Shown: one piece after another, positions 6,458 to 59,672 of the stretch
Position numbering within the stretch: position 1 is the stretch's first letter
Layout of the letters: every line of letters starts with the position of its first letter
Origin: Scilla litardierei
Taxonomy: Eukaryota; Streptophyta; Magnoliopsida; Asparagales; Asparagaceae
Direction: 5' to 3'
NCBI GenBank assembly: GCA_030789695.1
Contig: CM061130.1
Location: forward strand, 10,593,860 to 10,657,859
DNA: 64,000 nucleotides
Position numbers and translations under genes: made by a program
Notes under the pieces: model-generated
What the model was told of the DNA's origin: nothing
What the model saw: only the letters and a program-made list of their open reading frames with translations
The model's database searches: none

Positions 6458-6565
6458 ATCCTAGCACGCGGGAGCGGCAGGATGAGACGTTGGGAGTTAT
6501 CGTTGCAAGCTTAGTGCTCCCGGAATCGATCAGTGTTAATGGACACGGGAGTGCCCACTGATCGA
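6458..6565 (+). other. Structured leader hairpins in Athila-1 LTR
   Basis: Two hairpins. The first has stem ATCCT/AGGAT (6458-6462 and 6479-6483) around the 16-nt loop AGCACGCGGGAGCGGC. The second has a perfect 10-bp stem TCGATCAGTG/CACTGATCGA (6526-6535 and 6556-6565) around a 20-nt loop ending GGACACGGGAGTGCC. In the related LTR at 54072-54111 the second stem is TCGGTCAGTG/CACTGACCGA, a compensatory A:U to G:C change. The region lies downstream of the TATA box, so it should be transcribed. Confidence 0.7.
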
Positions 6566-6972
6566 ATCCGGGAAGTCCGGTGTATCATCCTGGGCATCGA
6601 CCGGAATATCGGGCACATGGGATGCCGGTACCACTTTCAGAGGCAATGTCTCACCATTAGACCCTAATTCCGATCGCTATCCTACCCGTAGGTCGTATCA
6701 GGGAGAGTCGCTCGTTGGAGTGGAAACCAAGGTCCCGGGTTTATTTTCTTATTGTTCATACCTTGAATTCTTATATCTTGACAACCATCTATCGATTCGG
6801 GCTAGCTCACCGACGGGGTGAATTTGGTCCTCCTTGACACAAGCACAACCTAGCCTCCCTGTGTTCGACCCCCAAGCCACACTACAACACCGTGCGCTTG
6901 CGGTTACAAATATTTTAAACCCCTTGTCTGCCACGCGGCCACACACACGCGCGGCGGCACCGGTCAAGTTTA

Positions 6973-22322: not shown

Positions 22323-22327
22323 AGTTT

Positions 22328-22341: not shown

Positions 22342-23918
22342 TGACGTGCGTTTATATTTTATATATTCATGCACGTTTTCTTTTGTGTTTCTCCGTATTT
22401 TTTCGCCGTCTTTTATTCGTCTTCTCGTATTTTCTCGTTTTCTTTCACTTTTCTTTGTTTCTCCATGTTTGTAGGGGATTGACCACGTAGGGGACGTCTA
22501 ACGTCGATATCTCAAGTCCCCGGAGCAACGGGAGGAGTCACGCGTGATCCAGGGGGTCAAACGTCAAAGAATACATCTTTCAGCCCCTCACCCGGTCGGT
22601 TGGTCATCTCCAACCGATCGGGCGATGCATGCGTGCACCACCCGGTCTCAGCCAGAGCTCAGGTGAAAGTCACCCGACCGGTTCACATGTCGGTTCAGCG
22701 GGGGCCTGTTCTCTGTCTTTTCGATCCAAATTCCAACCTATCGGGTGACTCTCACCCGATCGGTTCATCTGTAGCTGATGCTGAGGAGCTGAAGACACGG
22801 GCACCCAACCGATCACTTCACCCGATGGCGCCAAGATCCAACCGGTCACTCCAGGAACTCACCCGACCGGTTCATATGACCGGGTGAAAGCTCGCCATTT
22901 TCTGTTCATTATCTGTAACGGATCACCCGATCGGTTGACTTGTCAACCGATCGGGTGATACGAGAGTCTATAAATAGAACCCCTAGGGTTCCAGAAACGG
23001 GGGAGCTGCTAGTTTTTACTGTTTTCTCCTATTATGACGGCTGTAATTTCTGTTCTTTCGTAAGTTATCGGATCTTTCTCAAACTTTAGTATTGTCTTAA
23101 TTACTCTATTACTTCCACATTCCAATCGCCTGATTATGATTCCAACGGTTCATTTTCATTTAGATCGCTTTTTAATGAATTTTTGTGAGTAGTTCCCAAA
23201 TCTGGGATTTTGGTGGAAACCCCTTCGGGGGCTCTTCCCGATGCATCCATAGGGTTAGGAAATCGACATGGATTAGGATTCTAACGGTTACGCGGGGTGT
23301 TTCATTGTCATCGGCGGGAAAAAGACCGCCTTTGACCGTTGGGCCAAGGGGGAATAAACTTGGCGGTTGACTCCCTAGCCATAGCTCACGTCCTTAGCGT
23401 AGACGCCGAATCCTAGCACGCGGGAGCGGCAGGATGAGACGTTGGGAGTTATCGTTGCGAGCTTAGTGCTCCCGGAATCGATCAGTGTTAATGGACACGG
23501 GAGTGTCTACTGATCGAATCCAGGAAGTCCGGTGTATCATCCTGGGCACCGACCGGAATATCGGGCCCATGGGATGCCGGTACCACTTTCAGAGGCAACG
23601 TCTCACCATTAGACCCTAATTCTGATCGCTATCCTACTCGTAGGTCGTATCGGGGAGAGTCGCTCGTTGGAGTGGAAACCAAGGTCCCGGGTTTATTTTC
23701 TTATTGTTCATACCTTGAATTCTTATATCGTGACAACCATCTACCGATTCGGGCTAGCTCGCCCACGGGGTGATTTTGATCCTCCTTGACACAAGCACAA
23801 CCTAGCCTCCCTGTGTTCGACCCCCAAGCCACACTACAACACCGTGCGCTTGCGGTTACAAATATTTTAAACCCCTTGCCTGCCATGCGGCCACACGCGC
23901 GCGCGGCGGCACCGGTCA
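22342..23918 (+). mobile_element. Athila-1 3' LTR
   Basis: TGACGTGCG to ACCGGTCA, 1577 bp, co-linear with the 5' LTR. Palindromic array 22588-22960, TATA box 22969-22976, leader hairpin 23478-23517. In the latter one pair of the 10-bp stem has become G-U. It is followed by the ACATA duplication. Confidence 0.93.
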
Positions 23919-23923
23919 ACATA
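23919..23923. repeat. Target-site duplication of Athila-1, right (ACATA)
   Basis: Matches 5385-5389. Confidence 0.9.
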
Positions 23924-37501: not shown

Positions 37502-39699
37502 TCAAGTCTCTGCTGCTGCTTCTTCCTCTTCTTCTTCAGAGTCTTCAGAAAGGTCGGTCTGATATTGGGTTCTCGATTCAGCCCTGAACCAATCCTTCAC
37601 ACAAACCGACGCTTCTACGATATCTGGCTTCAGCCGTGACCTCTTGTTGCTAAGAACACGACTACCTGCACTAAAAGCAGACTCCGAAGCAATAGTGGAT
37701 ATGGGTACGGCTAACAAATCACGAGCCATCATGGAAAGAATTGTATAACTATTCTTATATTGTTTCCACCATGACAGAACATCAAAACTCTCATTATTCA
37801 AGTCTTCTTCAGAAAATAAACAAGAACTTGACAAATACCTAGACAGTTCACTAGCTGTGTCAGATGTTCTTTGCTTCTTCTTGCCCATAATCAGGCGGAC
37901 TCTGCTTGGAGCACTTGAAGATGCTTGAACAATAGATGTGTGTGCAGAACTACCATATCGTGTCTCATATACAGAAAAAAGTGATCTTAAGCTACTCTTA
38001 AAACTAGCTTTGTGTTGTTCAGCTTTTTTTTGAAGGTTCAAGTTTTCGTAATAGTGATCTAAGAAGTCAAGTACTACATCCTCCTTAAAACGGGGATCAA
38101 AAACCTTCGCTAAAGTGTATTGCAAAGGAATGGGATTCCAATACTTACGGAGTTTAATCTCCATCTGTTCTATCATTGCTTTAAGGTCTGGAGTCCTAAT
38201 GGTGTCATTATCTCTATGTTTTTGTATAACTTCATAGATCACAGCTAATTGGTCTAAGCCTAAAACTGAAGTGGAGTAGTAAACACCAGAAAACTTGTTT
38301 GTTGTCAAGTAGAAAATTTCAAAAAAATCATAAAGTTCATCTATAATTAGCCACTCATAATCACTAATTTCATAATCACTATCATTTGCAAGGTATGAAC
38401 TTGCAAACTCATTAAGTTGGGTTCTATTCCGTCTCATACAACGTATCATTAGATACGTTGAATTCCACCTATCGGGGACACTAAATTTGAATGCCCTATA
38501 AGGCAGTTGGTTACTACGACAAAACTACCTACATTCCCTCTTTTTTTGTGAATTAGTGGTAATTAAAAGCATTAGGTTTCTAGCCTTTTCCAGATAAACA
38601 GAAGCAAGTTTAAGACCATCTTGAACTACTAAGTTTAAAACATGGCATGCACAACGTTGATGAAAAATTAACCCATCTAGATCTGGGTTCCATTGACGTT
38701 GCAAAAAATTAATGGCTAAAGAATTATTCGAACCATTATCAAAAGTAATTGTAAAAATTTTTTGCTCAATATCATAATCACGACAAATATTTTGCAAAGT
38801 CCTACCAATAACCACACCCTTGTGTGCATGCTCTAACACCTTAAAACCAATAATTCTTTTCTGAATGATATAATCGTGATCTACATAATGGGCCGTAAGA
38901 CATATGTATGATGCACCCCATTTTGTAGTCCATATGTCAGAAGTTAATGAAATTCTAGATTCTAAATTAAGAAAAATCTGATGCAAATTTGCCTGTCCTT
39001 CATGAAAAATAGTCATACAATCTTTTCTAAGAGTGTTCCTAGATAATTTTCTAAATGCAGGGTTAAATGCATTTTGCTGTAATCGCTCTAATTCTGGGCT
39101 TTCAGCATAATTTAGAGGTAGTTCTTTGCTTAAAACAAATCTCGCCATCTCTTTTCTCATATTTTCAACAGAATATGAGAAAGAAGTAAGAGAGGAAGAT
39201 GATGAAGATAAATTTAATGTTGCTTGTCTAGCATCTTTTTAACATGCGATTTCATGTGTCTTAGCAGATGTGATGTGCCGGCAGTATGTGCGGCAGCAAA
39301 ACTAGTTCTACATATCTTACAAAAGGCACGAATTTGTTCGATGCCATTACTATCTTTTACCATTTCACGTGAAAAGTGATCCCAAACACCGGACGTTGGT
39401 CCTTTCTTTTGGGTTTGTGTAGTAGGTGCAGGCATATGTGAAGCAGGTGTTGATGTTTGTGCAGGTGAACTTGTGTACGTGTGAGCAGCATGCGAGAAAG
39501 GTGAATGTGCAGGTGGTGGCATGACGGGGCTAAGATTATTACTAGCCCCATAGTTATCAGGTTCTTGTGTTTCAAAATATGCCATATCAGGATTATTACA
39601 GCGTAGTAAATCAGCATAATATTCATAATCGGCAGTATTAGTCTCATCATCTATATTAAAATTCATATTGATGTTCCTAGATCGAGACGGTCCTGCCAT
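37502..39699 (-). pseudogene. hAT transposase with two lesions
   Basis: Minus-strand frame from ATG 39699 to the stop at 37502, about 730 codons in total. The N-terminus is Pro/Thr-rich, then a BED-type zinc finger (WDHF, C..C in FCKIC, H...H in HLLRHMKSH). Then comes the RNase-H-like core (SLTSDIWTTKWGASYICLTAHY, FTITFDNGSNN, RCACHVLNLVV, WNSTYLM). The C-terminal hAT dimerisation region has PISTIASESAFSAGSRVLS and ends acidic. Breaks: a one-base loss in an A-run near 39236-39240 (frameshift just after the finger) and one in-frame TAG at 38525-38527, fitting CAG to TAG. Otherwise complete. It would excise and reinsert the element in the nucleus. Confidence 0.9.
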
Positions 39700-43008: not shown

Positions 43009-43312
43009 TGATCGCTCCTTATTTTACCCTTTTTTCTGCATGTTTTCATGACATTTCGATCGCCCATATTGCGTTTTTCACGATTATTCGATGATATCGC
43101 ATTACTTTTCACTATTTCTTGTTTTTTGTCGTATTTCAGGAGATATGGAGCGATCTGGAGCGAAAATGAGATCAAGGGACTTTCACGCATACCAGAGCAT
43201 CGCCCACGGCTTATTTGAGGAGTTAGCAGCGCTTAAGTATGAGCGGAAGAGGAAGAAATTCGATGGAATCGACGAGGAGGCGAGGAGGAGAAGAAAAGAG
43301 CCCAGAAGCAGC

Positions 43313-43765
43313 TCACTCGACCGAACAGATAGTTTACTCGGTCGAGTGAAGGATTGCACTCGCCCGAGTGAAACGGATACATACTGCCAATTTTTAATGT
43401 TCACTCGACCGAGCAATATAGTTCACTCAGCTGAGTGAAGGATTGCACTCGCCCGAGTGAAACGGATACACACTGCCAATTTTCAACGTTCACTTGGCTG
43501 AGCAAGGAAGTTCACTCGGTCGAGTGAGAAAACTCACTCGCCCAAGTGCGACAGGGATTTTCTTCCGAGAAGCGGCCAAGTTACTGGAAATTTTAAGAAG
43601 ACCCACTCGGCCAAGCATGATTTCTCACTCGGCCGAGTGAAGAAGCCCACTCGCCCGAGTCAGACAGAGCGACAGACCCCCAACTTTCCTAGACTTTCTG
43701 TCTTTTATTGGGTCTGTCACTCGGCCGAGTGACATAGGTCACTCTACCGAGTGATGCAGTCCGAC
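43313..43765 (+). repeat. Array of CACTCG-NC-CGAGTG palindromes in Athila-2 U3
   Basis: Fifteen or more half- or full sites such as CACTCGGCCGAGTG, CACTCGCCCGAGTG and CACTCGACCGAG. One 89-bp unit is tandemly duplicated (43351 and 43440). The array lies in the same place as the CCGATCGG arrays of Athila-1, with a different sequence but the same 14-bp palindromic form. Confidence 0.85.
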
Positions 43766-44191
43766 TGCTACGCAAATTTGGTTTTCTGGGCTGTGCAGGG
43801 GCAATTCTGTCAGGATTTTTTGGACGAATTTGGCTTGCATTTAAACCTAGTTTTATCCCTAGTTTTAGGAGAGACTTGAATTATTTTTTGACGGCTATTT
43901 CTTTTGTAAATCTCAGCTGGAGATCATAGACACGCAATTTGGTTTGTTCTTTCTTGCTAAAACTCTTATTTTTATGAATTGTTCTTTCTCTACAATGAAT
44001 TGTGCTATGATCTTATTTGTTATTATTTGTTATTTTGAGATTTCCATGATGATTTGTGAGTAGTTTCGTCGTTCTAGAGTATGGGGATGAACCCTATGGA
44101 CCCGATCTTTGAATTGTGATGAATAAATTGAATTGTTGCTAAGATTGAAGAAAGGTTAGGTTGTGATTGATTTATTGCGAGTAGCTAGGAA

Positions 44192-44503
44192 TTTCCATCG
44201 ATTGGGATTTGCAAGAGATTGGATCCCAATTGATGGGAAGGCCTAGATATTCGACTTAGGTTTATAATTGAGATTCTCTAGATTTGGTTTGCAAGAGATT
44301 GGACCAAAGCTAGGATTTTTATTATAAATCTATACTAATATTCGTTTGCAAGAGATTGGATGAATATGAACTATCATAACCTAGATCGTAGCTCGACTTT
44401 GCATGAGAGTGGGCTCGAGGTGCGATTGGACGATGATGTTGATCTTTATGCTAGTGGCTTAGGTTAGGGTTTGTACGAGAGTGGGCCCTAATCTAGGTTG
44501 CTA
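44192..44503 (+). ncRNA. Five iterated hairpins with conserved 16-nt loop (Athila-2 leader)
   Basis: H1 44192-44239: 16-bp stem with two G-U pairs, loop TTTGCAAGAGATTGGA. H2 44278-44313: stem CTAG.TTTGGT, same loop core, plus a perfect outer stem TTTATAAT/ATTATAAA (44261-44268, 44321-44328). H3 44338-44367: 7-bp stem ATATTCG/TGAATAT, same loop. H4 44385-44426: about 11 pairs, loop core TTTGCATGAGAGTGGG. H5 44452-44503: 18-bp stem with five G-U pairs, loop TTTGTACGAGAGTGGG. Stem sequences are unrelated while loops are kept. They lie between the promoter and the primer site, so they should be in the genomic RNA leader. A cis-acting RNA element of a retrotransposon, not an independent RNA gene. 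Confidence 0.75.
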
Positions 44504-44852
44504 TAGACCGGCAATAGCGCGAAAGCATGAGCTTGGTTCTACATTAAATTGCGACTAGTTCACCTACATTCAAGCTTTGCAATATTAAGATTCATGATTC
44601 ACAAGGATAAGTGACGATCCGTAGCGGGGATTTCCTATCCCTAGACGCTTTATTATATTGAATTCTATTTGCTATTTGAACGATTGTGACACTACTATCA
44701 AAACCATTCTTATTCCATCAATAGCTAGGTGATCAAAGTGGGATACTGTCAATTGTCCTCCCTGTGTTCGATACCCGATCGCCACTATGTCGTGCACTTG
44801 CGGTAAAACTACAGTCGTTTTCCGGGTGTATATCCAGGCGCGATCAAGTTTT

Positions 44853-44870
44853 TGGCGTCGTTACCGGGGA
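44853..44870 (+). other. Primer-binding site (tRNA-Asp type), Athila-2
   Basis: TGGCGTCGTTACCGGGGA, two mismatches from the Athila-1 primer site, six bases after the LTR. Confidence 0.8.
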
Positions 44871-44981
44871 GGCGACGGTATTTTATTCTTTTTACTTAGC
44901 TATTTCTTTTTATTTTATTATTTTCACTCTTCTATTCCTCTATTGTGCTAACAATTCCATCAAGACTCTCTTTTTCTGTGC

Positions 44982-46738
44982 ATGTACAAGAGATCGAAGG
45001 TACGTCAAGAAGATATATTATTTGATCCCGAGATCGAGCGTACAGCAAGGAGGCTTAGAGTCGAGAGGAGACTTGCTATAGAGGAAGATCATATGACCGC
45101 TCCAAAGACACCAGAGGAGTTAGCGGCGCGCATGGCTAGGCTTGTCTCTATCCGAGATAGGCTATGGCCTAAGACTACTTCTACTAACTCTTCTATTGTG
45201 ATGCCAGAGTTGGCGGCAGACAAGAACTTTGAGCTTAAAACGGGACTTGTGGTGTTGATGCAACAAGACCCATTTCATGGGAACTCCCAAGAAAACCCAC
45301 ACTACCATTTACAGTTGTTATTGTCTAGATGTGCTAATTTTGAGATGCCCGGCGTGTCGGCCGACGCTATTCGACTGCGCCTCTTCCAATTTACTCTTCG
45401 AAACAAAGTATTGTATTGTGAGGATGCAAGCGGAGGGGATCTTTACCACTTGGGATGAGCTGGCGAGCGCATTTGTCAACAAGTTCTACCCGCCATCCAA
45501 GACCGTCAAGATAAGAAGCGCGCTCATGTCCTTCAAGCAAGGACATCAGGAAACTCTATTTGAGGCATGGGAGCGTTTCAAAGATCTCCAACACCAATGC
45601 CCCCATCATAGTATTGAAGCATGTGAACTTGTACATAGATTTTACAACGAATTGCAACCGATCACAAAGCAAATAATCGATGCAACCGCCAATGGAGCTA
45701 TTTTGTCTAAGACACCGGATGATGCTACGGCCTTACTTGAGGAGATGGCCTCAAATAACCAACAATGGGGCGACGAGAGGGGACATTCTTCGTCATCCTT
45801 GAAGCCAACAAGTATTTATGAGGCAAAGGCCGTAGCAGAGCTCTCTACAAAGTTTGATTCTCTCCACAAGGTCGTGGAGAGATTGGAGAAGTTGATTAGT
45901 GATCCGCATGGAACCCCCACTGCATCTACACCGGGAGAAAGTATGGGCGATTGGCAAGATCAAGCCCATGTTATGTATGTTGGAGGAGAGCAAGGAGAAG
46001 GAGCTACGAAGCAAATCCAATATGTTGCGGGAAGCACTGGCTATTGGGCAAACCCGGCTACGAGGAATCACCTGGGGTTTTCATATGCTAATAATGATGG
46101 AGCCTTGAATCCACCACCGCAACAACCACAAGTTCGGCCTCCACAACAACCGCAATATCAACCGAGAGGACCCCAACAACAAAACTTTCCACCAAGGCAA
46201 CAAGCGGGACCATATAGACCATCGGTGGTACAATCAAGGATGGAGAGCTCCTAATCCACCTCAAGCACCGCCGAGGTCGGGCCATGAAGCAAGGGTTGAT
46301 GAATTCATGGCCGAACAAAAGAAGGTAAATGCTAGATTGACGGCCCAACAAGACTCCCTCAACACCGTCGTGGCACAATTATCGAAGCAAATAGCGTTGC
46401 TCAATAAGAACACTCAACAATTGCCGGCTCAACCGGAGCAAAACCCACGGAGCAATACCGGCCACATCAATGCGGTGGTGGCGGTAACTACTAGGGGTGG
46501 GAAGGACACTACCCCCGCCATGATTCAAACCAAGGAGCTGAGGGAAGAAATTTGGATGACAAGGAGCCGGTCAATGAAGAGGAGTGCGCAAAAGAGCCAA
46601 ACGAGGGTGAAAAATCTGAAATTGAAAAGCCACGAGAGGAGCGCAACTATATGCCACCGGTACCCTTCCCACAACGATTGGCAAAGGCAAAGATTGATAA
46701 GCGGCTCGCCAAATTTCTGGAGTACTTGCGAGGAGTGA
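44982..46738 (+). pseudogene. gag: Athila-2 gag, frameshifted
   Basis: Starts at ATG 44982 (MYKRSKVRQEDILFDPEIE). The gag domain blocks are LVVLMQQDPFHGN, LRLFQFTLRNK, TWDELASAFVNKFYPPSKT, LFEAWERFKDLQHQCPHH and VHRFYNELQPITKQIIDATANGA. A Gln/Pro-rich region follows (46110-46250). A frameshift near 45405-45430 separates the first two frames. A second break near 46250 ends the frame, and a third frame (46307-46738) carries the C-terminal VNARLTAQQDSLN and the conserved PVPFPQRLAKAKI linker. The protease would follow but is cut off at 46752. About 30-40 percent similar to Athila-1 gag by eye. Confidence 0.82.
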
Positions 46739-46752
46739 GCCTAAATATCCCT

Positions 46753-48421
46753 TGACGTGCGTTTATATTTCATATATTCACGCACGTTTTCTTCCGTGTT
46801 TTTCCGCTATTTTCTGCCGTCTTGAATTTATTTTCTCGTGTTTTCTTGTTTTCTTTCACTTTTCCGTATTTTTGTATGTTTGTAGAGTTTGACGGCATAT
46901 GGGACATAAAACGACGATATCATGAGTCCCCGAAGCAACAGGAGGAGTCACGCGTGATCCAGGGGGTCAAATGACGAAGATCGCATCTTTCAGCCCCCCA
47001 CCCGATCGGTTGGACACAGCCAACCGATCGGGTGATGCACACGTGCACGACCCGGTCAACCGCTGAAGCGACGAAGGTATCAACCGATCGGGTCACCGCC
47101 CGGTTCAACCGACTGATATCTTTGGAAACTGGAGCTGAAACTCAACCGATCGGGTGATCTTCACCCGATCGGTTCACCTATAGCCGTTTCCCGAAGAAGA
47201 CGACCCGGAGAGCTCACCCGACCGTCAGCAGACCGTGCCAAAATGCCCGAAGTTACTGTCTTCTGGATCAACAATTCCAACCGATCGGTTGATTTATCAA
47301 CCGATCGGTTCACCCGACGACGATCAAGATCCAAACGACGAGCAGCTTCTATCAACCGACCATGTCGTCTGACCTGGTGAAGTCTCGAAGATGGCTGCCG
47401 AAGTTCGTAGCAGGTCACCCAATCAGGTGATTCTTCACCCGATCAGGTGATGTCGTTTTCTATATATACAGAACCTAGGTTTCCAGCTTCGGGAGAGTTG
47501 TTATTTTTGCTGTTTTTTCTCTCTCTTGACCGCTGTAATTATTCAGATATTAGTAAGTTGTCTGATCTTTGTTAAACTTTAATATAGTGTTATTTGCATT
47601 GCTCTTACTACTTTTCAATCGTCTGATCATGTTTCTAACGGTCAATTTTGATTTAGATTTCTTTTTAGTAAATATGTGTGAGTAGTTCTCAAATCTGGGA
47701 TTTTGGTGGAAACCCCTTCGTGGGTTCTCCCCGATGTGTCCATAGAACTAGGAAATCGATAGGGACTAGGAATCTATCGGTTACGCGGGGTGTTTTATTG
47801 TCATCGGCGGGAAAAAGACCGACTTTGACCGTTGGGCTAAGGGGGAATAAACTTGGCGGTTGACTCCCTAGCCAAAGCTCACGCCCTTAGCGTAGACGTC
47901 GAATCCTAGCACGCGGGAGCGGCAGGATGAGACGTTGGGAGTTATCGTTGCGAGCTTAGGGCTCCCGGAGTCGGTCAATGTCAATGGACATGGGAATGCC
48001 CACTGACCGAACCCGGGTAGTCCGGTGTATCATCCTGGGCACCGATCGGAATATCGGGCCCATGGGACGCTGGTATCACTCTTAGAGGCAGCGTCTCACC
48101 ATTTGACCTAATTCCGATCGTTTTCCTATCCATAGGCCGTGTTGGCGAGAATCACACGATAGGGCGGAAACCGAAGTCTCGGGTTTCCCTTTATATCGTT
48201 TATCCCTCGCATTCTATTTTCCGTGATAACACATCTACCGATTCGGGCTAGCTCGCCCATGGGGTGAATCTGTTCCTTCTTGACACAAGCACAACCACGC
48301 CTCCCTGAGTTCGACCCCCAAGCCACACTACAACACCGTGCGCTTGCGGTTATAAATATTTAAATCTCACGCCCCCAATCATATATTGAACACATCTGAC
48401 ACGCACATCGAGGGGACGTCA
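46753..48421 (+). mobile_element. Array LTR 1
   Basis: TGACGTGCG to ACGTCA, 1669 bp, related to the 1577-bp Athila-1 LTR but clearly another subfamily. Palindromic array 46998-47450, TATA box TATATATA at 47461-47468. Leader hairpin 47971-48010, with one A-C mismatch in its stem. Confidence 0.88.
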
Positions 48422-48428
48422 AGATTTA

Positions 48429-48446
48429 TGGCGCCGTTACCGGGGA
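48429..48446 (+). other. Primer-binding site, array copy 1
   Basis: TGGCGCCGTTACCGGGGA, seven bases after the LTR. Confidence 0.8.
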
Positions 48447-48614
48447 GGCAACATGATTGTTATTTTAGGATCTCATGAACCTTTGAGTCTAGCTCTCATC
48501 CCTATCTCGCGATAATTTTCGCATTCTTCCTTTTCACTTTTATTTTCTTATTTTTATTTTCTATTTTATCTATTTCCTTCCCACTTCTCGCTTCACGGGT
48601 GTTTGTTGTTTTTC

Positions 48615-49639
48615 ATGCGTAGGAGTTCAAGAAGTCTCGACGACTTGATTCCCGTTGATCCGGAGATAAACGCCACCCTAAGGCGTTTTGCTGCAGGGAA
48701 GCGAAGAAGAGAAGATCCTGAGACCATGGGGAGAGCACCTCACCTCACAAGTCCCTGCTAGAGTACTCGATGCCATCCATCGAGTCCACCTCCGCTATCC
48801 GTCCTCCTGCTATTACGGCGCAAAGCTTCGAGCTTAAGCCGTCTTTGGTGACGTGGATCCAGCAGGATCAATTTTCGGGTGCACCCATGGAGAGCCCCAT
48901 CGAATATTTGGACTCCTTCTTGGAGAAATGTGACACCTTCCGGATAAACGGTGTCACAACTGAGGCAATCCTTCTGAAGCTATTCCCCTTCTCTCTGCGA
49001 GATAAGGCCAAGCTGTGGCTTAGGGGGAAGGACCCAAATACGTTCAACACTTGGGAGAAGCTTTCAAACGCTTTTCTGACAAAGTTCTTTCCTCCGGGGA
49101 AGACCATGAAGCTGAGGAGTGAGATCTCCTCCTTCTCCCAAGCCAGCCACGAGTCCCTGCATGAAGCTTGGACAAGATTTAAAGAGATGCATCGAAGATG
49201 CCCTCATCACGAGCTTCCCAAGTGCCTGATAATTAATCTGTTCTACAACGGATTGAGGGATGATTTGAAATCGTCGATGGACGCCGTGGCTGGAGGGTCT
49301 TTCATGTCCAGAAGTGAAGAAGATGCCGGGAACATTCTAGAAAATATGGCATCTAACAATGAGCGGTGGTGTGACGAGAGAGCCACACCTAGATCTGGGG
49401 GAATCCACAGGGTCAAAGACGTCGACAAATTATCCAGCAAGTTTGACTTGCTGTCGACCCAGATCTCCGCATTGATGGTAGGAGCCGGTGGCACCGGTAC
49501 ACAACATATTGCAGCGGTGGAGGCCGAAGTCTTGGGAGACTTCGAGGGTGGTGGCATCTCACCACCGTTGGACCAAGCGAGCGCACTATTCTACAATCCT
49601 ACGGGAAATGCGTCGTATCCACCACGATCCCCCGGATGA
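48615..49639 (+). pseudogene. gag: Athila-1-type gag, array copy 1, truncated
   Basis: ATG 48615 (MRRSSRSLDDLIPVD). One G lost near 48727 causes an early frameshift. The frame is regained for 289 codons (48770-49639) with the gag blocks FLEKCDTFRINGV, SLRDKAKLWLRGK and KFFPPGKT. It ends at a deletion junction near 49625 that joins gag directly to the PPDDPRCNV tail. A second junction near 49700 removes most of that tail. No protease remains. Confidence 0.82.
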
Positions 49640-49913
49640 TCCAAGATGTAACGTGCTGGAGTTAGAAGAAGAGAGAGTTGTGGAGGAAAGCTCCTGGGAA
49701 ACCCCCGTCCACCTTGAATATCATCAACGGGCGTCGAGCAAACGACGTTAAACAAAAGCGCTTCATGGGCGGCAACCCATGCTCTAAAACTTTTATCTTC
49801 GTTTTTAGGATTTTTATTATCTTTATTTTTTCTATTTTAATAATTAAATTCAGCCGCGGGATCAACCGTCGAGGAACTTAGGGCATTCGTGAATTTTTGC
49901 AGGAAACAAGCCC
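49640..49913 (+). other. Post-gag segment, array copy 1
   Basis: Residual polyprotein tail (49640-49700), then the GGGCGTCGAGCAAACGACG segment and stem-loop CATGGG-CGGCAA-CCCATG (49764-49781). The T-rich sequence after it is non-coding. Confidence 0.6.
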
Positions 49914-50258
49914 TCACCCGATCGGGTGACTACTCAACCGATCGGGTGAGACGTATCAGACAATGGCCGTATCTGAGCTCCAACGAACCGGTCGGGTGAA
50001 GCAAGCAGAGACCGGGTGACAGACAGTGTGATCTGTGCAGAAGTCTCGGGAATTTTGGGGAGTTGATCAACCGATCGGGTGAAGCTAAGCATGACTGGGT
50101 GGAAGACCGGGTGAGCTGTACTAAACTTTCGGGAAAAAGTGTGAAGCGACGAACCGATCAGTTGAGTTCTCAATCGATCGGGTCGCCTGTAGCCAACTTT
50201 CAGCAAAAATTTTGACCTAAAAGTCAACCGATCAGGTAACATTTCACCCGATCGGTTC
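49914..50258 (+). repeat. Internal palindromic array, array copy 1
   Basis: CACCCGATCGGGTG and CAACCGATCGGGTG-type sites, ending 11 bp before a TATATAA box at 50270-50276. Confidence 0.8.
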
Positions 50259-50269
50259 GACTTAAACTC

Positions 50270-50276
50270 TATATAA
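50270..50276 (+). promoter_or_regulatory. Internal TATA box, array copy 1
   Basis: TATATAA in the same position as 19764-19771 and 58005-58011. Confidence 0.6.
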
Positions 50277-50694
50277 GCCCGACCCCCTCACCCGTTCATA
50301 TCCCTCGCCCGACCCCGATTCCTTCTCGACCGATTCGACTTCCTCTCCTTCAACCGTCCTTGTTCATCCTCTCAACCGGTCACAAACCTCCCCCAATCGA
50401 TCCATCAACTCACTTTCTCCATCTCTCCATCTCTCCATCAATCTCTCTCCCTCTCCCATCAATTTCACCCCCCCCGCAAAAGCCCTAATTTTCGCCCATT
50501 TCCCCCCATTTTCGAAATTTGCTGAAAGGAGTTGTCGCTGATTCACACTACATCCCGTTGCGTTGCGTTGGGACCTATACGAGCAAGGATCTTCATCTAG
50601 CTTGGGTAACTTCGCTCCTCAGCTCAATTTTATATTTTACCCTAAAATTTCATTTTGCTCGATTGCCGTGTTAGTGTGTATTCATCGTATCTTG

Positions 50695-50696
<2 letters not shown>

Positions 50697-50725
<29 letters not shown>

Positions 50726-50726
50726 G
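50697..50726 (+). repeat. CA microsatellite
   Basis: About 14 CA units just before the accessory ORF start. Related copies have only short CA or CTCA runs here. Confidence 0.9.
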
Positions 50727-50737
50727 ACTCCTGCACA

Positions 50738-51016
50738 ATGCCTCCTCGCTGTGCTAAACCCACCAACGCCAGCACGTCCAACCCTAGACTAACCCGACGT
50801 GCTCGTCGCACACAATCCCCCACCCAACCCACCACAACCACCAATTCATCCACCACCCCACGCCCCTCTGACCCCGTTTACATTGGCGACACCGAATACC
50901 AGGTGTTATTCCATGACGACGACCAAGCTGACCGGTTCATGTCCATGCTCCTCCTAGCAGGAGTTGGTGGTCAGGCAACTCAGCAGTCAGTCGAGCGTGA
51001 CCTACCTGTCCTTTAA
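50738..51016 (+). pseudogene. Accessory ORF, array copy 1, truncated by a stop
   Basis: Same MPPR start and core (DDDQADRFMSMLLLAGVGGQ) as the copy at 58453, but a CAA to TAA change stops it after 92 codons at LPVL. Beyond the stop the sequence still reads as the conserved SLIRHIRTDSPDVSELDI block to about 51140. Function unknown. Confidence 0.7.
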
Positions 51017-51140
51017 AGCCTCATTCGTCACATTCGCACTGACTCACCCGATGTTTCCGAGCTTGACATCCTCCCCCCCACCACTCCTGGTCCTCAGCAC
51101 AGGGCCCCATCACCACCCCCAGAGGGTGGTGCCTCTGCTT

Positions 51141-52853
51141 GATATATTCCCATCAAGGTTTTGCCTCCCCCTATTTTTACTACCCATCTGTCTTTGCGGT
51201 GCTCTGCTTTACCACAGCTAGGGGGAGGACCCATCCACGCATCAGGTCCCTTCTTTTTTTCATTCTTTTCTTTTATTGACCTCCCCCTTGCATATCTCTG
51301 CATATTCACGATCACATCATATCGCTAGCACTGTCACGTCTAGCTTGGGGGAAGTCAACTTTTTCTGTGTGCTGTCGTGTGTCGTTTTTCTTTGTGTGTT
51401 TGTTTATTTTTCGTGTGGTGTGATTTTTATTTTTATTCTTCTTTTCAGTTTTGACTGTGTGATTTTCTTGTTTTTCGTGTCTTTTTGTGTCTTCTCCCCC
51501 ATATTCATTGCCCTCCCGTATTTAATTCTATTGCATTGAGGGTAATGCAAGTTTCAGCTTGGGGGAGTCGCACCTCATGCGTCATTTGTCTCTTTTTCTT
51601 TCTTATTTGAGTCGTTTTTCTCCGTGTTTTTCTTTTTCTTTTTCTTTTCTTCTTTTTATCTCTTTCTCCTAGAGATGAACCCTATGATGAATTGCCACGA
51701 AAATCACACGCACACCTAGCACGGCTTCGATAATCACATTCACTAGCCTTAGGAAGTCGAGTCCTCTTGCATTTCATGCATCGCGGGTCCACTTAGCTTT
51801 TATGTGTGTCGTGTGTCGTGACTAGAGTTGGGTGTGCTTCTACTTTGTGATTGTGTTTTATATACCTGACCAGGAATGACCCCTAGATTATCATGCTTCG
51901 ATTTGAATATGCGGTATTTGCCTATCTTGTCTGCTTCTATATGCATGTTATATGTTTATATCGTATGCTTCAATTCGCATGTGTCGGGATTCCATAATTA
52001 AGGACTAGGATAACTCATTTAGCCCATGCTCTAATTAGCGAGAAATATCTCCTTTGCCCAAGTGTTTAGATTCCGATTTCTTTTTTATATTACTTGGTGC
52101 AAATCCCCTCGTCGTGTACCGTTCTCCCACTTGGGAGAGTACACATGTATATATCCCAATATCCAAAAATCCAAAAAAAGGAGAGAAAAGAAAAACACAA
52201 AAAAGAAAAAAAAGAAAGAAAAAAGAAAAAAAATATGTATAGCCAAAAATCCAAAAAAATACAAATACCCTAAACCCAAAAATTTCCAGTGTGAATATTT
52301 TTCCTATCTACCGAGAATAAAGGGAAGGCGAGAGTTTGCACTGAGTGTTCTACTCCACATCATCTCAACCCCCATCGTTTTCGAAAACACTTGGCTTGGG
52401 AACTTTTTAGCTATTATCTAGGCTATAGTGTGGTGATTTCCTTAACCCTAGATGTGGAGTCCCTGACGCATGATATGTTTCGATTCCTGCTTTATTCTAA
52501 TGCATGCTTGAGCTATATATTCACTGCTTAATTCAAATCGAATCGATATTTGGGTCATTTCTTGGATTTGTGTATATGGAGCTTACTGCACGATGTAGAT
52601 AGTGACACCGACTGCTAGTACACGACCACACTCACTCGCGCTTCACCGCGAGGGCCCACGGCACTTGTCTGGACTCGTATTCCTTGGTTTAGTGATGTGA
52701 TTTGGCTTTTGTCTGCTTTGTGTGTCATTTTTGGTTTTGTTTGCCCTGACGGGCGATTTAGGATTTAGAGTTCTCTTCTTTCTCTCTTCCCTCCGAGCTC
52801 CTACTCTCACTCGTCTTCCTCGAGGACGAGGAAGGGTTCAGCTTGGGGGATTT
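51141..52853 (+). other. 3' untranslated region, array copy 1
   Basis: Non-coding. AGCTTGGGGGA motifs at 51342-51352 and 51556-51566 and the polypurine tract at 52840-52853. Hairpin with a G-U pair before the second motif, and CTTCCTCG-AGGA-CGAGGAAG at 52815-52834. An A-rich block lies at 52155-52285. Confidence 0.7.
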
Positions 52854-54522
52854 TGACGTGCGTTTATATTTCATATATTCACACATGTTTTCTTCCGTGT
52901 TTTTCCGCTATTTTCTGCCGTCTTGTATTCGTTTTCTCATGTTTTCTTGTTTTCTTTCACTTTTCCGTGTTTTTGTATGTTTGCAGGAGTTTGTCGGCGC
53001 AGGGGACATAAAACGACGATATCATGAGTCCACGAAGCAACATGAGGAGTCACGCGTGATCCAGGGGGTCAAACGACGAAGATCGCATCTTTCAGCCCCC
53101 CACCCGATCGGTTGGACACAGCCAACCGATCGGGTGATGCACGCGTGCATGACCCAGTCAGTCGCTGAAGCGACGAAGGTATCAACCGACCGGGTCACCG
53201 ACCGGTTCAAGCGACTGATCTCTCTGGAAACTGGAGATAAAACTCAACCGATCGGGTGATCTTCACCCGATCGGTTCACCTGTAGCCGTTTCCCCGAAGA
53301 AGACGACCCGGAGAGCACACTCGACCGTCAGTAGACCGTGCCAAAACGCCCGAAGTTACTGTCTTTTGGAGCAACAATTCCAACCGATCGGTTGATTTAT
53401 CAACCGATCGGTTCACCTGACGACGATCAAGATCCAAACGACGAGCAGCTTCCATCAACCGACCGTGTCGTCTGACCGGGTGAAGTCTCGAAGATGGCTG
53501 CCGAAGTTTGTAGCAGGTCACCCGATCGGGTGATTCTTCACCCGATCGGGTGATGTCGTTTTCTATATATACAGAACCTAGGTTTCCAGATTCGGGAGAG
53601 ATGTTATTTTTGCTGTTTTTCTCTCCTTGACGGCTGTAATTTTTCAGATATTAGTAAGTTGTCTGATCTTTGTTAAACTTTAATATAGTGTTATTTGCAT
53701 TGCTCTTACTACTTTTCAATCGTCTGACCATATTTCTAACGGTCGATTTTGATTTAGATTGCTTTTTAGTAAATATGTGTGAGTAGTTCCCAAATCTGGG
53801 ATTTTGGTGGAAACCCCTTCGTGGGTTCTCCCCGATGCGTCCATAGGACTAGGAAATCGATAGGGACTAGGAATCTATCGGTTACGCGGGGTGTTTTATT
53901 GTCATCAGCGGGAAAAAGACCGCCTTTGACCGTTGGGCCAAGGGGGAATAAAATTGGCGGTTGACTCCTTAGCCAAAGCTCACGCCCTTAGCGTAGACGT
54001 CGAATCCTAGCGCGCGGGAGCGGCAGGATGAGATGTTGGGAGTTATCATTGCGAGCTTAGTGCTCCCAGAGTCGGTCAGTGTTAATGGACATGGGAATAC
54101 CCACTGACCGAACCCGGGTAGTCCGGCGTATCATCCTGGGCACCGACCGGAATATCGGGCCCATGGGACGCTGGTATCACTCTTAGAGGCAACGTCTCAC
54201 CATTAGACCCTAATTCCGATCGTTTTCCTATCTATAGGCCGTGTTGGCCAGAATCGCACGATAAGGCAGAAACCGAAGTCCCGGGTTTCCCTTTATATCG
54301 TTTATCCCTTGCATTCTATTTTCCGTGACAACCCATCTACCGATTTGGGCTAGCTCACCCATGGGGTGAATCCAGTCCTTCTTGACACAAGAACAACCAC
54401 GCCTCCATGAGTTCGACCCCCAAGCCACACTACAACACCGTGCGCTTGCGGTTATAAATATTTAAATCTCACGCCCCAATCATATATTACACACATCTGA
54501 CACGCACATCGAGGGGACGTTA
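52854..54522 (+). mobile_element. Array LTR 2
   Basis: TGACGTGCG to ACGTTA (the last CA changed to TA), 1669 bp. Palindromic array 53100-53554, TATA box 53564-53571. Leader hairpin TCGGTCAGTG/CACTGACCGA at 54072-54111. Confidence 0.88.
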
Positions 54523-54529
54523 AGCTTTA

Positions 54530-54547
54530 TGGCGTCGTTGCCGGGGA
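54530..54547 (+). other. Primer-binding site, array copy 2
   Basis: TGGCGTCGTTGCCGGGGA, eight bases after the LTR end. Confidence 0.8.
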
Positions 54548-54714
54548 GGCAACGTGCTTGTAATTTTAGGATCTCATGAACCTTTGAGTCTGGCTCTCAT
54601 CCCTATCTCGTGATATTTTCACACTCTTCCTTTTCACTTTTATTTTCTTATTTTTATTTTCTATTTTATCTATTTCCTTCCCACTTCTCGCTTCACGGGT
54701 GTTTGTTGTTTTTC

Positions 54715-56258
54715 ATGCGCAGGAGTTCAGGAAGTCTCGACGACTTGATTCCCGTTGATCCAGAGATAAACGCCACCGTAAGGCGTTTAGCCGCAGAGAA
54801 GAGAAGAAGAGAAGATCCTGAGACCATGGGGGAGAACACCCCACCTCATAAGTCCCTGCTGGAGTACTTGATGCCATCCATCGAGTCCACCTCCGCCATC
54901 TGTCCTCCTGCTATTACGGCGCAAAGCTTCGAGCTTAAGCCGTCTTTGGTGACGTGGATCCAGCAGGATAAATTTTCGGGTGCACCCATGGAGAGCCCTA
55001 TTGAACATTTGGACTCCTTCTTGGAGAAATGTGACACCTTCTGGATAACGGTGTCACAACTGAGGCGATCCGTCTGAAGATATTCCCCTTCTCTCTGCGA
55101 GATAAGGCCAAGCTGTGGCTTAGGGGGAAGGACCCAAATACGTTCAACACTTAGGAGAAGCTTTCAAACCCTTTTCTGACAAAGTTCTTTCCTCTGGGGA
55201 AGACCATGAAGCTGAGTAGTGAGATCTCCTCCTTCTCCCAAGCCAGCCACGAGTCCCTGCATGAAGCTTGGACAAGATTTAAAGAGATGCAGCGAAGATG
55301 CCTACATCACGAGCTTCCCAAGTGGTAGATAATTAATCTGTTCTACAATGGATTGAGGGATGATTTGAAATCGTTGATGGACGCCGCGGCTGGAGGGTCT
55401 TTCATGTCCAGAAGTGAGGAAGATGCCGGGAACATTCTAGAAAATATGGCATCTAACAATGAGCGGTGGTGTGACGAGAGAGCCACACCTATATCTGGGG
55501 GTATCCACAGGGTCAAAGACGTCGACAAATTATCCAGCAAGTTTGACTTGCTGTCGACCCAGATCTCCGCATTGATGGTAGGAGCCGGTGGCACCGGTAC
55601 ACAACATATTGCAGCGGTGGAGGCCGAAGTCTTGGGCGACTTCGAGGGTGGTGACATCTCACCACCGTTGGACCAAGCGAGCGCACTATTCTACAATCCT
55701 ATGGGAAATGCTTCGTATCCACCACGGACTAGCTCCAATCCGGCCTACTCTCCAAATAACCGGAACCACCCCAACCTTAGTTACCGAGCGCCGTATCAAC
55801 AGCCGCCTCCTCAGCAACAACAGCAGCTAATATATCAGCCGGCTAGGCCTCAGCAGTAGCAGCCTCAGTAGCAGTAGTTTCAGTAGCAGCAGGCTCCACA
55901 ACAGTATCAGCAATATGCTCCCAGGAATCAGTAACCCATTCAGCAGCAATATGGCCAGCAGAGGGCCATCTCTCCGGTTGAGTCCCCTTGACTCAATACC
56001 TCGCCAACCAGGAGAAGATAAATTTGAAGCTAGAGATGGGGCAGAGAGTTCTCACTGATCAGGTAACCCAGCTAGGGTTACAAGTGACGAACCTTCAGAG
56101 GCCACAGAATCTATTACCGCCACAACCTGAAATGAACCCGAGGGGAGCAAATCATACTTTGGCACTCACGCACGAGAATGCGAATGTGTCCGCTATCGTG
56201 TTGAGAAGCGGGACACAAATCCCCACAAAAGTGCCCCCCCAAGGAACCGGAAGCACCG
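54715..56258 (+). pseudogene. gag: Athila-1-type gag, array copy 2, heavily damaged
   Basis: ATG 54715. A one-base loss near 55045 (after the CDTFW block) shifts the frame. Stops follow at 55153 and 55327. A cluster of TAG codons lies in the Gln-rich region (55857-55935), where CAG codons are expected. Another frameshift lies at a C-run near 56230. All gag blocks seen in the copy at 7160 are present in order. Confidence 0.85.
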
Positions 56259-57424
56259 TTGGTCGTAGAACGACCAATTGAAAAATTGAATGACGACGGT
56301 GCTTCGTCGCCAAAGCAAACGACTCCGGAGGGAGCCCCTGAAGAGGAGAAGAAGAAAACCGAGGAAGGGAGCCTCAAGGTGTTCAAGCCCGTTGTGCCTT
56401 TTCCACAACGGCTAGCCCAAGCCAAGATAGACGAAAAGTATGGCAAATTCTTTGCCATGGTCAAGGATCCAAGCTTGCAAATCCCCTTCCTTGAAGCTAT
56501 CAAGACGATTCCCTCCTATGCCAAATTTCTAAAGGATTTAGTGACGAGAGGGTCCAGAAAGGAGAAGGTCGTATTGACGGCGGAATGCAGTGCTCTCATT
56601 CAGAGAGCAAATCCGCCTAAGCTTAAAGACCCGGGGAGCTTCTCTATCCCTTGCGCAATCGGGGAGGTAAAGATCCATCGTGCGCTCGTCGATCTTGGAG
56701 CGAGCGTCAGTTTGATGCCCCTGTCGCTGTATAAGAGGATAGGGATGGGCGACTTGGAGCCCACCGGCATGACATTACAGCTTGCAGACCGTTCCGTCAA
56801 GTATCCAATGGGTGTTGTTGATGACCTCCCTGTCAATGTGAGAGGGGTGCATGTGCCGGTGGACTTCTTCGTCGTGGACATGCCTGAAGATGCGCACACC
56901 CCCATCATCCTAGGACGGCCATTCATGGCCACTGCCGGCGTTTTAATAGATGTGAAGAACGGAAAGCTTTCCCTTAACGTCGGTAACGAGAAAGTCGAAT
57001 TTGACTTGGGGTTGTCAATGAAGCGCCCTGATCCCCCGGATGATCCAAGATGCAACATGCTGGAGTTAGAAGAAGAGAGAGTTGTGGAGGCAAGCTCCTG
57101 GGAAATTCTTTCAAGAAATCCCCCCGATGGCTTGGGGGACTTAGAAGAACCAGTCGGCTGGAGAATTATGACGTTGCTGGGAGAGCGGATGCGGCACACA
57201 CGGTCCCTCCCGGATTTCAAAATGCTCCTCCAACGAGGAGGAAAGGGAAAGAGCCCATGGGGATCACCGGAGAAGAGATTCGGATCTTGAAACGAGTGGC
57301 GATAGACACCAAATTAAGTGAGAAGCCCCGGATCCTGTCAACAAGGGGAGGGTCGTCGAGCAAGTTTTCCTTTCACCGCCGACGATACCGAAAGCCGCCA
57401 ACTCTGAACCCGAAGCGATGTTGA
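56259..57424 (+). pseudogene. Athila-1-type protease and polyprotein tail, array copy 2
   Basis: Open for 343 codons from 56259 to 57290. Linker VFKPVVPFPQRLAQAKIDEKY, retropepsin with VDLGASVSLMPLSLYKRIG and IILGRPFMAT, then NGKLSLNVGNEKVEFDLG. This uninterrupted copy shows what the LARD split in Athila-1. Near 57100-57170 a shift moves the tail to another frame (57050-57424). As in Athila-1, no RT follows. The stem-loop segment starts near 57465. Confidence 0.85.
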
Positions 57425-57647
57425 CTTTAGGGCATCACCCCCCGTCCACCTTGAATATCATCAACGGGCGTCGTGCAAACGACGTTAAACAAAAACGCTT
57501 CATGGGAGGCAACCCATGCTCTAAAACTTTTATCTTCGTTTTTAGGATTTTTATTATCTTTATTTTTTCTATTTTAATAATTAAACTCAGCCGCGGGATC
57601 AACCGTCGAGAGACTTAGGCCATTTGTGAATTTTTGCAGGAAACAAG
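57425..57647 (+). other. Post-protease segment, array copy 2
   Basis: GGGCGTCGTGCAAACGACG, stem-loop CATGGGAGGCAACCCATG at about 57502-57519, then T-rich non-coding sequence. Confidence 0.6.
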
Positions 57648-57994
57648 CCCTCACCTGATCGGGTGATTACTCAACCGATCGGGTGAGACGTATCAGACAA
57701 TGGCCGTATCTGAGCTCCAACGAACCGGTCGGGTGAAGCAAGCCGAGACCGGGTGACAGACCGTGTGATCTGTGCAGAAGTCTCGGGAATTTTGGGGAGT
57801 TGATCAACCGATCGGGTGAAGCTAAGTGACCGGGTGGAAGACTGGGTGAGCTGTACTAAACTTTCGGGAAAAAGTGTGAAGCGACGAACCGATCGGTTGA
57901 GTTCTTAACCGATCGGGTCGCCTGTAGCCAACTTTCAGCAAAAATTTCGACCTAAAAGTCAACCGATCGGGTGACATTTCACCCGATCGGTTTG
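57648..57994 (+). repeat. Internal palindromic array, array copy 2
   Basis: Paired sites include GGGTGACATTTCACCC context near 57970. It ends about 10 bp before the TATA box. Confidence 0.8.
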
Positions 57995-58004
57995 ACTTAA
58001 ACTC

Positions 58005-58011
58005 TATATAA
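58005..58011 (+). promoter_or_regulatory. Internal TATA box, array copy 2
   Basis: TATATAA, about 440 bp before the accessory ORF ATG. Confidence 0.6.
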
Positions 58012-58452
58012 GCCCAACCCCCTCACACGTTCATCTCCCTCGCCCGACCCCGATTCCTTCTCGACCGATTCGACTTCCTCTCCCTCAACCGTCCTCGTTC
58101 ATCCTCTCAACCGGTCACAAACCTTCCCCAATTGATCCATCAACTCACTTTCTCCATCTCTCCATCAATCTCTCTCCCTCTCCCATCGATTTCACCCCCC
58201 GCAAAAGCCCTAATTTTCGCCCATTTCCCCCCATTTTCGAAATTTGCTGAACGGAGTTGCTGCGGCTTCACATTACATCCCATTGCGTTGCGTTGGGACC
58301 TCTACAAGCAAGGATCTTCATCTAGCTTGGGTAACTTTGCTCCTCAGCTCAATTTTATATTTTACCCTAAAATTTCATTTTGCTCGATTGTCGTGTTAGT
58401 GTCTATTCATCGTATCTTGCATACACTCACTCACACACACGACTCCTGCACA

Positions 58453-58857
58453 ATGCCTCCTCGCCGTGCTAAACCCACCAACACCAGCACGTCCAACCCT
58501 AGACCCACCCGACGCACTCATCGCACACAATCCCCTACCCAACCCACCACCGCCACTAATTCATCCACCACCCCACGCCCCTCTGACCCCGTTTACATTG
58601 GCGACACCGAATACCAGGTGACATTCCATGATGATGACCAAGCTGACCGGTTCATGTCCATGCTCCTCCTAGCAGGAGTTGGTGGTCAGGCAACTCAGCA
58701 GTCAGTCGAGCGTGACCTACCCGTCCTTCAAAGCCTCATTCGTCACATTCGCACTGACTCACCCGATGTTTCCGAGCTTGACATCCCACCCCCCACCACT
58801 CCTGGTCCTCATCACAGGGCCCCATCACCACCCCCAAAGGGCGGTGCCTCTGCTTGA
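58453..58857 (+). CDS. Accessory ORF, array copy 2 (intact)
   Basis: 134 codons from ATG 58453 (MPPRRAKPTNTSTSNP), the start shared with the other copies. An upstream in-frame extension exists but is not conserved in the 20203 copy. Same layout: basic start, Ser/Thr/Pro linker, core with DDDQADRFMSMLLLAGVGGQ and LQSLIRHIR, tail DIPPPTTPGP. It is intact although gag in the same element carries many stops. No known domain is recognised. See 20203 for alternatives. Confidence 0.7.
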   Translation: MPPRRAKPTNTSTSNPRPTRRTHRTQSPTQPTTATNSSTTPRPSDPVYIGDTEYQVTFHDDDQADRFMSMLLLAGVGGQATQQSVERDLPVLQSLIRHIRTDSPDVSELDIPPPTTPGPHHRAPSPPPKGGASA

Positions 58858-59672
58858 TATATTCCCATCAAGGATTTGCCTCCCTCTATTTTTAGTGCCC
58901 ATCTGTCTTTGCGGGGCCCTGCTTTACCACAGCTAGGGGGAGGACCCATTCACGCATCGGGTCCCTTCTTTTTTATTTTTATTTCCATTCTTTTCTTTTA
59001 TTGACCTCCCCCTTGCATATCTCTACATATTCATGATCACATCATATCTCTCGCACTGTCACGTCTAGCTTGGGGGAAGTCAACTTTTTCTGTGTGTTGT
59101 CGTGTGTCGTTTTTCTTTGTGTGTTTGTTTATTTGTCGTGTGGTGTGATTTTTATTTTTATTCTTCTTCAGTTTCGTTTGTGTGATTTTCTTGTTTTTCG
59201 TGTCTTTTTGTGTCTGTGCGTCTTCTCCCCCATATTCATTGCCCTCCCGTATTTAATTCTATTGCATTGAGGGCAGTGCAAGTTTCAGCTTGGGGGAGTC
59301 GCACCTCGTGCTTCATTTGTCTCTTTTTCTTCGTTATTTGAGTCGTTTTTCTCCGTGTTTTTCTTTTTTTTTCTTTTCTTCTTTTTATCTCTTTCTCCTA
59401 GAGATGAACCCTATGATGAATTGCCACGAAAATCACACGCACACCTAGCACGGCTTCGATAATCACATTCACTAGCCTTAGGAAGTCGAGTCCTCTTGCA
59501 TTTCATGCATCGCGGGTCCACTTAGTTTTTATGTGTGTCGTGTGTCGTGACTAGAGTTGGGTGTGCTTCTACTTTGTGATTGTGTTTTATATACCTATCC
59601 AGGAATGACCCCTAGATTATCATGCTTCGATTTGAATATGCGGTATTTGTCTATCATGTCTGCTTCTATATG
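58858..59672 (+). other. 3' untranslated region, array copy 2, cut by Tekay insertion
   Basis: AGCTTGGGGGA motifs at 59067-59077 and 59287-59297, hairpin with a G-U pair before the second. Ends at ATATG (59668-59672) where the Tekay LTR begins. The uninterrupted sequence is seen at 51881-51960. Confidence 0.7.

Follow-up and report, generated by a model that had tools for sequence, protein, structure and literature searches.

A pair of GACG hairpins is reportedly a leader signal in murine-leukaemia-type viruses, and alphaviruses and RNA phages carry multi-hairpin packaging signals in which a tip motif is shared and the stems are free in sequence. In the HIV-1 leader, NC contacts a GGAG tip (accessible part of PMC7599994). 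Repeated symmetric motifs also occur in plant LTRs, and in Sireviruses these are palindromes built around a CGG-CCG core and located upstream of the TATA box (available text of PMC2829016). In Diaspora and Calypso the LTR is followed within a few bp by a tRNA-Asp primer site (PMC1142308, available sections), and the words hairpin, leader and secondary structure are absent from the same sections on Diaspora. A word search of the accessible portion of a review of packaging structures (PMC8472981) returned nothing on retrotransposons. In the open-licence literature searched, none of the matches listed describes an array of the form reported below, and no account of own-RNA selection by plant Ty3/gypsy elements was found.

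We analyzed a 64-kb window (the whole stretch of Scilla litardierei DNA considered here), in which comparison of copies showed five consecutive predicted hairpins, at 44192-44503, with nearly constant tips and with arms that pair but are free in sequence. The nearest precedent is the retroviral leader with a small set of tetraloop hairpins. Both have tetraloop hairpins in a reverse-transcribing element's 5' leader; the present array differs in having five or six hairpins with a single tip, a UG bulge and GAGA in place of GACG or GGAG, in its position within the LTR and before the primer site, and in belonging to an element whose Gag has no detected zinc knuckle. With the multi-hairpin signals of alphaviruses and RNA phages it shares common tips and free stems, in a different class of element. 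Several described types were tried and rejected. The GACG-hairpin pair of type C retroviruses does not fit, the tetraloop columns being G, A, G, A, and neither does the Sirevirus repeated motif, the tips having no CGG-CCG core and the array lying downstream of the probable promoter. A described Rfam family was likewise set aside: a search with 43300-45100 gave two matches (E 1 and 1.2), both below the gathering threshold. In IMG/VR, neither the double loop nor the primer-site pattern had a match, and among 241 pattern matches no relative of gag was confirmed.

The hairpins, with the percentage of cells paired in 49 aligned copies, and one additional cap read from the alignment, are as follows.

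44192..44239, + strand: hairpin 1; 18-bp arms; UG bulge at 44210-44211; cap stem CAA/UUG; GAGA at 44215-44218; 96.6% paired
44277..44314, + strand: hairpin 2; 13-position arms; UG bulge; cap stem CAA/UUG; GAGA at 44295-44298; 96.1% paired
44338..44367, + strand: hairpin 3; 9-bp arms; UG bulge; cap stem CAA/UUG; GAGA at 44352-44355; 98.1% paired
44384..44427, + strand: hairpin 4; 16-position arms with mismatches; UG bulge; cap stem CAU/GUG; GAGA at 44405-44408; 98.3% paired
44452..44503, + strand: hairpin 5; 20-position arms; UG bulge; cap stem UAC/GUG; GAGA at 44477-44480; 95.5% paired
44518..44527, + strand: candidate sixth GNRA cap, directly 3' of the five, without a UG bulge

The first-pass annotation of this DNA had described a near-constant 16-nt loop on unrelated stems. 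Its constancy was borne out: the five loops start at 44208, 44288, 44345, 44398 and 44470, all remaining loop sites listed by the scan of the window have three mismatches, and no second set occurs elsewhere within the 64 kb. As an unpaired loop it did not survive, since most of it is paired. Each unit reads arm, U, UG bulge, three nucleotides, GAGA, three nucleotides, G, arm, so that a GNRA-type tetraloop sits on a 3-bp stem with a two-nucleotide bulge on the 5' side only, and below the bulge lie a U.G pair and the longer arm. The arms adjoining the cap extend over 18, 13, 9, 16 and 20 positions in hairpins 1-5. When the nine cap-adjacent arm positions were compared among hairpins, they agreed at one to six places, with a constant UU on the 5' side; hairpins 1 and 5 have the most similar arms. 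A simple tandem repeat, which the annotation had already discounted, is ruled out by these differing arms and by the uneven spacings between successive hairpins (80, 57, 53 and 72).

The minimum-energy fold of 44160-44530, a calculation proposed in the annotation, gave -139 kcal/mol; 100 shuffled versions averaged -92.9 (sd 4.85), which corresponds to a z of -9.5. In this fold, hairpins 1, 2 and 5 have their 3-bp caps. Hairpin 3 is missing from it but appears if folded in isolation; in hairpin 4, 14 of 16 arm pairs are retained below a different tip, whether within the segment or alone. The evidence for hairpins 3 and 4 is thus the comparison of copies, which supports all five. A descriptor consisting of 3 bp, a GNRA loop, a 5' bulge and an arm matched six places on the + strand of the window, five of them the array, and none on the - strand, whereas 30 shuffled windows had 0.5 matches on average and never two within 312 nt. 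With the comparison of copies, fold and descriptor confirm the five consecutive hairpins. The candidate sixth cap reads CGC-GAAA-GCA in the window, with one of three pairs lost, and CGC-GAGA-GCG in most of the 49 rows; RNAalifold predicted two of its pairs (368-375 and 369-374).

To compare copies, we aligned 49 family-A leaders (alignment A1: 48 loci and the window; 12 loci came from a loop-motif list and not from the primer-site sample, and L083 was excluded). Because both LTRs of an element are present in some cases, the rows are not independent, and the 71-pair structure imposed on A1 was written with knowledge of these sequences; under it, 96.9% of lettered pair cells hold. Five pairing measures exceeded those of shuffles, which reached the observed values in 0, 1, 0, 12 and 0 of 500 cases, and sliding the partners by 1-3 columns lowered pairing to 15-50%. 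In a null that scatters the changes of each column on a tree built from non-stem columns (300 simulations), 3,035 ± 52 cells were canonical, with a maximum of 3,191, compared with 3,360 of 3,479 observed, a value reached by none of the simulations. On the tree, 12 changes were compensatory on one branch, 114 one-sided changes kept the pair and 69 single changes broke one. RNAalifold, run unaided on A1, found 91 pairs, 22 of them with a compensatory change. Two arm pairs of hairpin 3 are U-A or C-G, each in about half of the 49 copies, and the third cap pair of hairpin 5 is A-U in 33, C-G in 15 and U-G in one. One pair, at columns 312-335, is intact in just 30 of the 49 rows. In 14 held-out copies, 966 of 993 cells were paired (97.3%).

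Complementary arms, on which the first-pass annotation had staked its interpretation, are thus kept in the 49 aligned and 14 held-out copies, and pairing in A1 is above that of shuffled controls. The R-scape-style test that it had also proposed went the other way. Our own strict version, run over all column pairs of A1 against a tree-based null of 40 simulations, returned no pair at E 0.05 (best 0.075); our reading of this result is low power from few dominant subfamilies. Taken as a whole, the annotation's interpretation is partly supported.

The annotation had also taken the structure to act in RNA, and both the pairing above the nulls and the direction of single changes agree with this. Changes away from Watson-Crick pairs gave G-U in 76 cases, A-C in 36 and other mismatches in 19 (G-U versus A-C, p 2e-4). 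The same classes numbered 26, 5 and 2 on internal branches (p 2e-4) and 50, 31 and 17 on tip branches, and outside stems the two directions balanced (C>T plus A>G, 145; G>A plus T>C, 155). Since G-U is commoner than A-C, the family-A bias points to a structure acting in sense-strand RNA. Constraint is concentrated in the tips: changes per column were 0.75 in caps, 1.73 in arms and 2.00 elsewhere, with 0.50 in the bulge and 0.45 in the tetraloop. In all five hairpins the bulge U is present in 49 of 49 rows, the bulge G in 47-49, and the tetraloop columns read G, A, G, A in 47-49.

The element that carries the array, which we call element A, has the following parts.

43009..44846, + strand: LTR of element A, 1,838 bp, TGATC...GATCA; the array is in its 3' part
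44853..44870, + strand: primer binding site of tRNA-Asp type, two differences from the pattern, 6 nt past the LTR end
44982..46254, + strand: gag of element A, two overlapping open frames; PF03732 (E 9.4e-15) in the second frame only

The LTR ends were read from LTR pairs of relatives, and the start and end of the LTR are 80% and 73% identical to those of a relative's LTR. The element is cut at about 46750, and another copy begins at about 46752. The first-pass annotation had placed the hairpins in a leader between promoter and primer site; they do lie upstream of the primer site, with the correction that the array is inside the LTR itself. Its Athila/Tat label is consistent with the tRNA-Asp primer site and the gag domain. 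A primer site for tRNA-Asp within a few bp of the LTR end and a Retrotrans_gag domain, followed in relatives by an aspartic protease, are features of the Athila/Tat type, and primer site and gag domain fit assignment of the family to plant Ty3/gypsy elements of this type.

The LTRs of eight loci were scanned and contained no TATAWAW box; the sole TATAWA match in the window's LTR, at 44323, is inside the array. Family B, a second family in the window, has TATAAATAG at 6017, upstream of its own hairpins, and a TTTAAA stretch lies at the corresponding position in the window, 43840. From these two positions we infer that the array lies within the transcribed 5' leader, downstream of a probable promoter. 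This leader contains 19 ATGs from 43900 to the gag start. Further upstream in the same LTR, at 43304-43780, is a different palindrome array of type CACTCGGCCGAGTGA, with units about 89-113 nt apart; these palindromes resemble the CGG-CCG repeated motifs of Sirevirus LTRs (PMC2829016, available text), yet they are in a Ty3/gypsy LTR.

The zinc-knuckle motif CX2CX3-4HX4C was not found in any forward frame of 44980-46750. Across 20 fetched gag regions, many of them decayed and one (L107) with a long frame unlike gag, a knuckle in any forward frame was seen in none of seven regions from family A, six from B and three from c2, and in one of two from c3 and the single regions from c4 and c5. Intact Gag-protease frames gave the same picture: those of one family-A locus (L103) and two family-B loci (L112, L115) have both domains without the knuckle, and those of L119 (c3) and L121 (c4) contain it. 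Diaspora, which shares the tRNA-Asp primer site, differs from family A in having a CX2CX4HX4C finger in its Gag (PMC1142308, available sections). Among the matches listed for homologous proteins (one list being the best 120 of 398), 122 of 201 had the motif; among those of at least 600 aa it was present in 93 of 150 and absent in 57. Loss of the knuckle as the cause of the array is a weak proposal, since 57 of 150 long homologues also do without it, and we draw no causal link between the two.

In the Scilla litardierei genome (3.68 Gb), exact matches to the 16-base loop number 139,488 (reversed control, 0), those to a 15-base form with C-G for A-U at the third cap pair 31,788 (control, 1) and those to the non-pairing A..G cap form 291 (control, 2); shared ancestry enters into these counts, and they do not test pairing independently. 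Identity between the two LTRs of a pair is 97.8, 98.1 and 99.3% in three cases and 95.8% in a fourth, and all eight of these LTRs have the five loops with at most two mismatches. Judged from such counts and identities, family A is very abundant and recently active. We sampled leaders at 98 of the 100 primer sites listed on one contig (C1), in batches of 8, 60 and 30, skipping two tandem duplicates. By similarity, 51 belong to family A, 28 to B, 7 to c2, 5 to c3, 2 each to c4 and c5 and 1 to c6, and 2 were unplaced. In the first sample, 38 family-A leaders, including the window, had a mean of 4.34 descriptor matches (reverse strand, 0.00; shuffled, 0.04), and one of them, L083, was without a recognisable loop. 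The 14 held-out family-A leaders had 3-5 matches each and none on the reverse strand.

Hairpins with tips of their own also occur in other families of this genome. Two were located in family B.

6458..6483, + strand: hairpin B1, AUCCU...AGGAU with a CGC-GGGA-GCG cap; the identical stretch recurs at 23410-23435 and 47903-47928
6519..6572, + strand: hairpin B2, CAC-GGGA-GUG cap with long arms

In 30 family-B leaders (27 from the sample and three from the window; L040, whose B1/B2 stretch is unlike the others, was excluded from 31), pairing was 96.3% for B1 and 92.4% for B2, compared with 21-43% in slid controls, and three changes were compensatory on one branch. The arms of B2 differ strongly among some copies (GGAAGGTG/CACCTTCC versus GATCAGTG/CACTGATC), and its third cap pair is C-G in 18 leaders, U-A in 9 and U-G in 2. 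The strand test showed no bias in family B (G-U 21, A-C 23). The GNRA descriptor found 0.06 matches per family-B leader, the same as in shuffles; it is nearly blind to this family because the B caps have a further inner bulge.

In c2, a CAC- or CAU-GAGA-GUG hairpin was present in all six first-sample leaders and CGU-GAGA-GCG in two of them as well, so its tip is also GAGA, in surroundings that differ from those of family A. Leaders of c3 have a constant CAAAA (or CACAA) loop on differing stems: three to five identical loops occurred in four of five leaders, compared with at most two in 50 shuffles, and U-A and C-G alternate at the same stem place between copies. Simple hairpins numbered 3.8 per leader in c3 (five leaders), 0.5 in c4 (two leaders) and 0 in the other families; this search detected c3 and not family A, whose stems its stem rule cannot see. 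Both c4 leaders have two GCGA hairpins, and neither the descriptor nor the simple-loop scan revealed an array in c5 or c6. Repeated caps, searched for automatically, turned up as groups of two to four in 10 of 11 leaders of family A and as a pair in one c4 leader of two; there were none in 13 B, 6 c2, 5 c3, 2 c5 and 1 c6 leaders. Families A, B and c2 all have GNRA tips, which makes the tip differences between families partial.

A constant tip repeated five times, on stems of which only the pairing is kept, would be the trace of repeated binding by one ligand. The tips may be equal docking sites for a single RNA-binding partner, with the arms as scaffolds, and five or six of them together would form a multivalent, high-avidity site in the leader RNA. 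The likeliest partner would be the element's own Gag, which would pick out its genomic RNA, perhaps in dimeric form, for inclusion in the virus-like particle; an element-encoded partner is favoured over a shared host protein because families in one nucleus use different tips. We regard a multivalent docking array, most likely for packaging with Gag as the predicted partner, as about an even call. Against packaging by Gag stands the lack of a zinc knuckle, the usual RNA-binding motif of packaging, in the intact A and B frames, and against docking more generally stand the negative strict test, the 69 changes that broke pairs and the absence of a strand bias in family B. Of the features of a packaging signal, a conserved RNA structure was found, probably within the transcribed leader, and a zinc-knuckle Gag was not; for the latter reason we do not claim membership in retroviral-type packaging signals, which the array resembles in form.

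The 19 ATGs before gag fit a role in translation too, the array bringing ribosomes to gag past a long AUG-rich leader by internal entry or shunting. GNRA tips are found in known internal ribosome entry sites; ribosome shunting, however, relies on one long stem and not on many small hairpins with the same tip, and repeated equal tips suggest one ligand binding repeatedly. We consider translation control, our second choice, unlikely. In its favour, plant pararetroviruses shunt past structured leaders (PMC5902531, accessible part).

Docking of a host protein, for nuclear export, stability or silencing avoidance of the unspliced RNA, would account for a multivalent RNA signal of the sense strand that was seen in both LTRs of each of the four pairs examined; different tips among families of the same genome are less expected for one host protein, and we think this reading, third in order, rather unlikely.

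A function in RNA-RNA contact only, with genomic RNA dimerising through tetraloop docking or tip contacts, has a precedent for paired leader hairpins in the GACG pair reported for murine-leukaemia-type viruses, but GAGA tips are unable to form long loop-loop pairs and the conserved UG bulge would be left unexplained; we hold it to be quite improbable. Least credible, to the point of being nearly dismissed, is a DNA-level feature, that is, palindromic protein sites or chance inverted repeats in the LTR. Palindromic boxes in LTRs of other plant elements (available text of PMC2829016), the similar array upstream at 43304-43780 and the missing strand bias in family B speak for it, whereas the conserved U.G pair and bulge, the one-strand G-U bias in family A and the absence of family-A descriptor matches on the other strand speak against it.

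If the docking array is generalised to the other families, plant Ty3/gypsy leaders would contain an undescribed class of RNA element, in which family-specific constant tips on drifting stems form a self-recognition code, each family's particle picking its own RNA and some families using the array in place of a zinc-knuckle contact. We put this forward tentatively, as possible but short of an even chance. Were it true, reverse-transcribing elements, like some RNA viruses, could use many equal sites and not one large signal. A compact repeated tip in an abundant, recently active family makes the choice of own RNA directly testable.

Several further features of the window were recorded. The family-B LTRs at 46921-47400 and 53041-53640 have upstream palindromes of their own, of the CACCCGATCGGTTG type, with strong local folding. 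The region 46752-59672 is arranged LTR-internal-LTR-internal, with primer sites at 48429 and 54530 and a middle LTR apparently shared, as after recombination of two copies. Inside a family-B element at 5390-23919, 9334-12234 and 15815-18715 form a direct repeat, 99.2% identical, probably the LTRs of a recent nested insertion. On the minus strand, 37502-38449 is a fragment of a hAT-type transposase, which further open frames adjoin up to 39699.

The primer-site pattern also occurs in six contigs of prokaryote assemblies, three of which (L002, L003 and L005) look like plant DNA; no GAGA array was seen in the stretches read of these three. L002 and L003 are plant-like retrotransposon DNA in assemblies named Streptomyces clavifer and Candidatus Burkholderia humilis, probably as contamination. 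In L005, a plant-like contig of the Blastococcus endophyticus assembly, the leader at 4880-5320 has repeated hairpin-like units of TCCACTTGGA, perhaps another array of similar kind in another plant.
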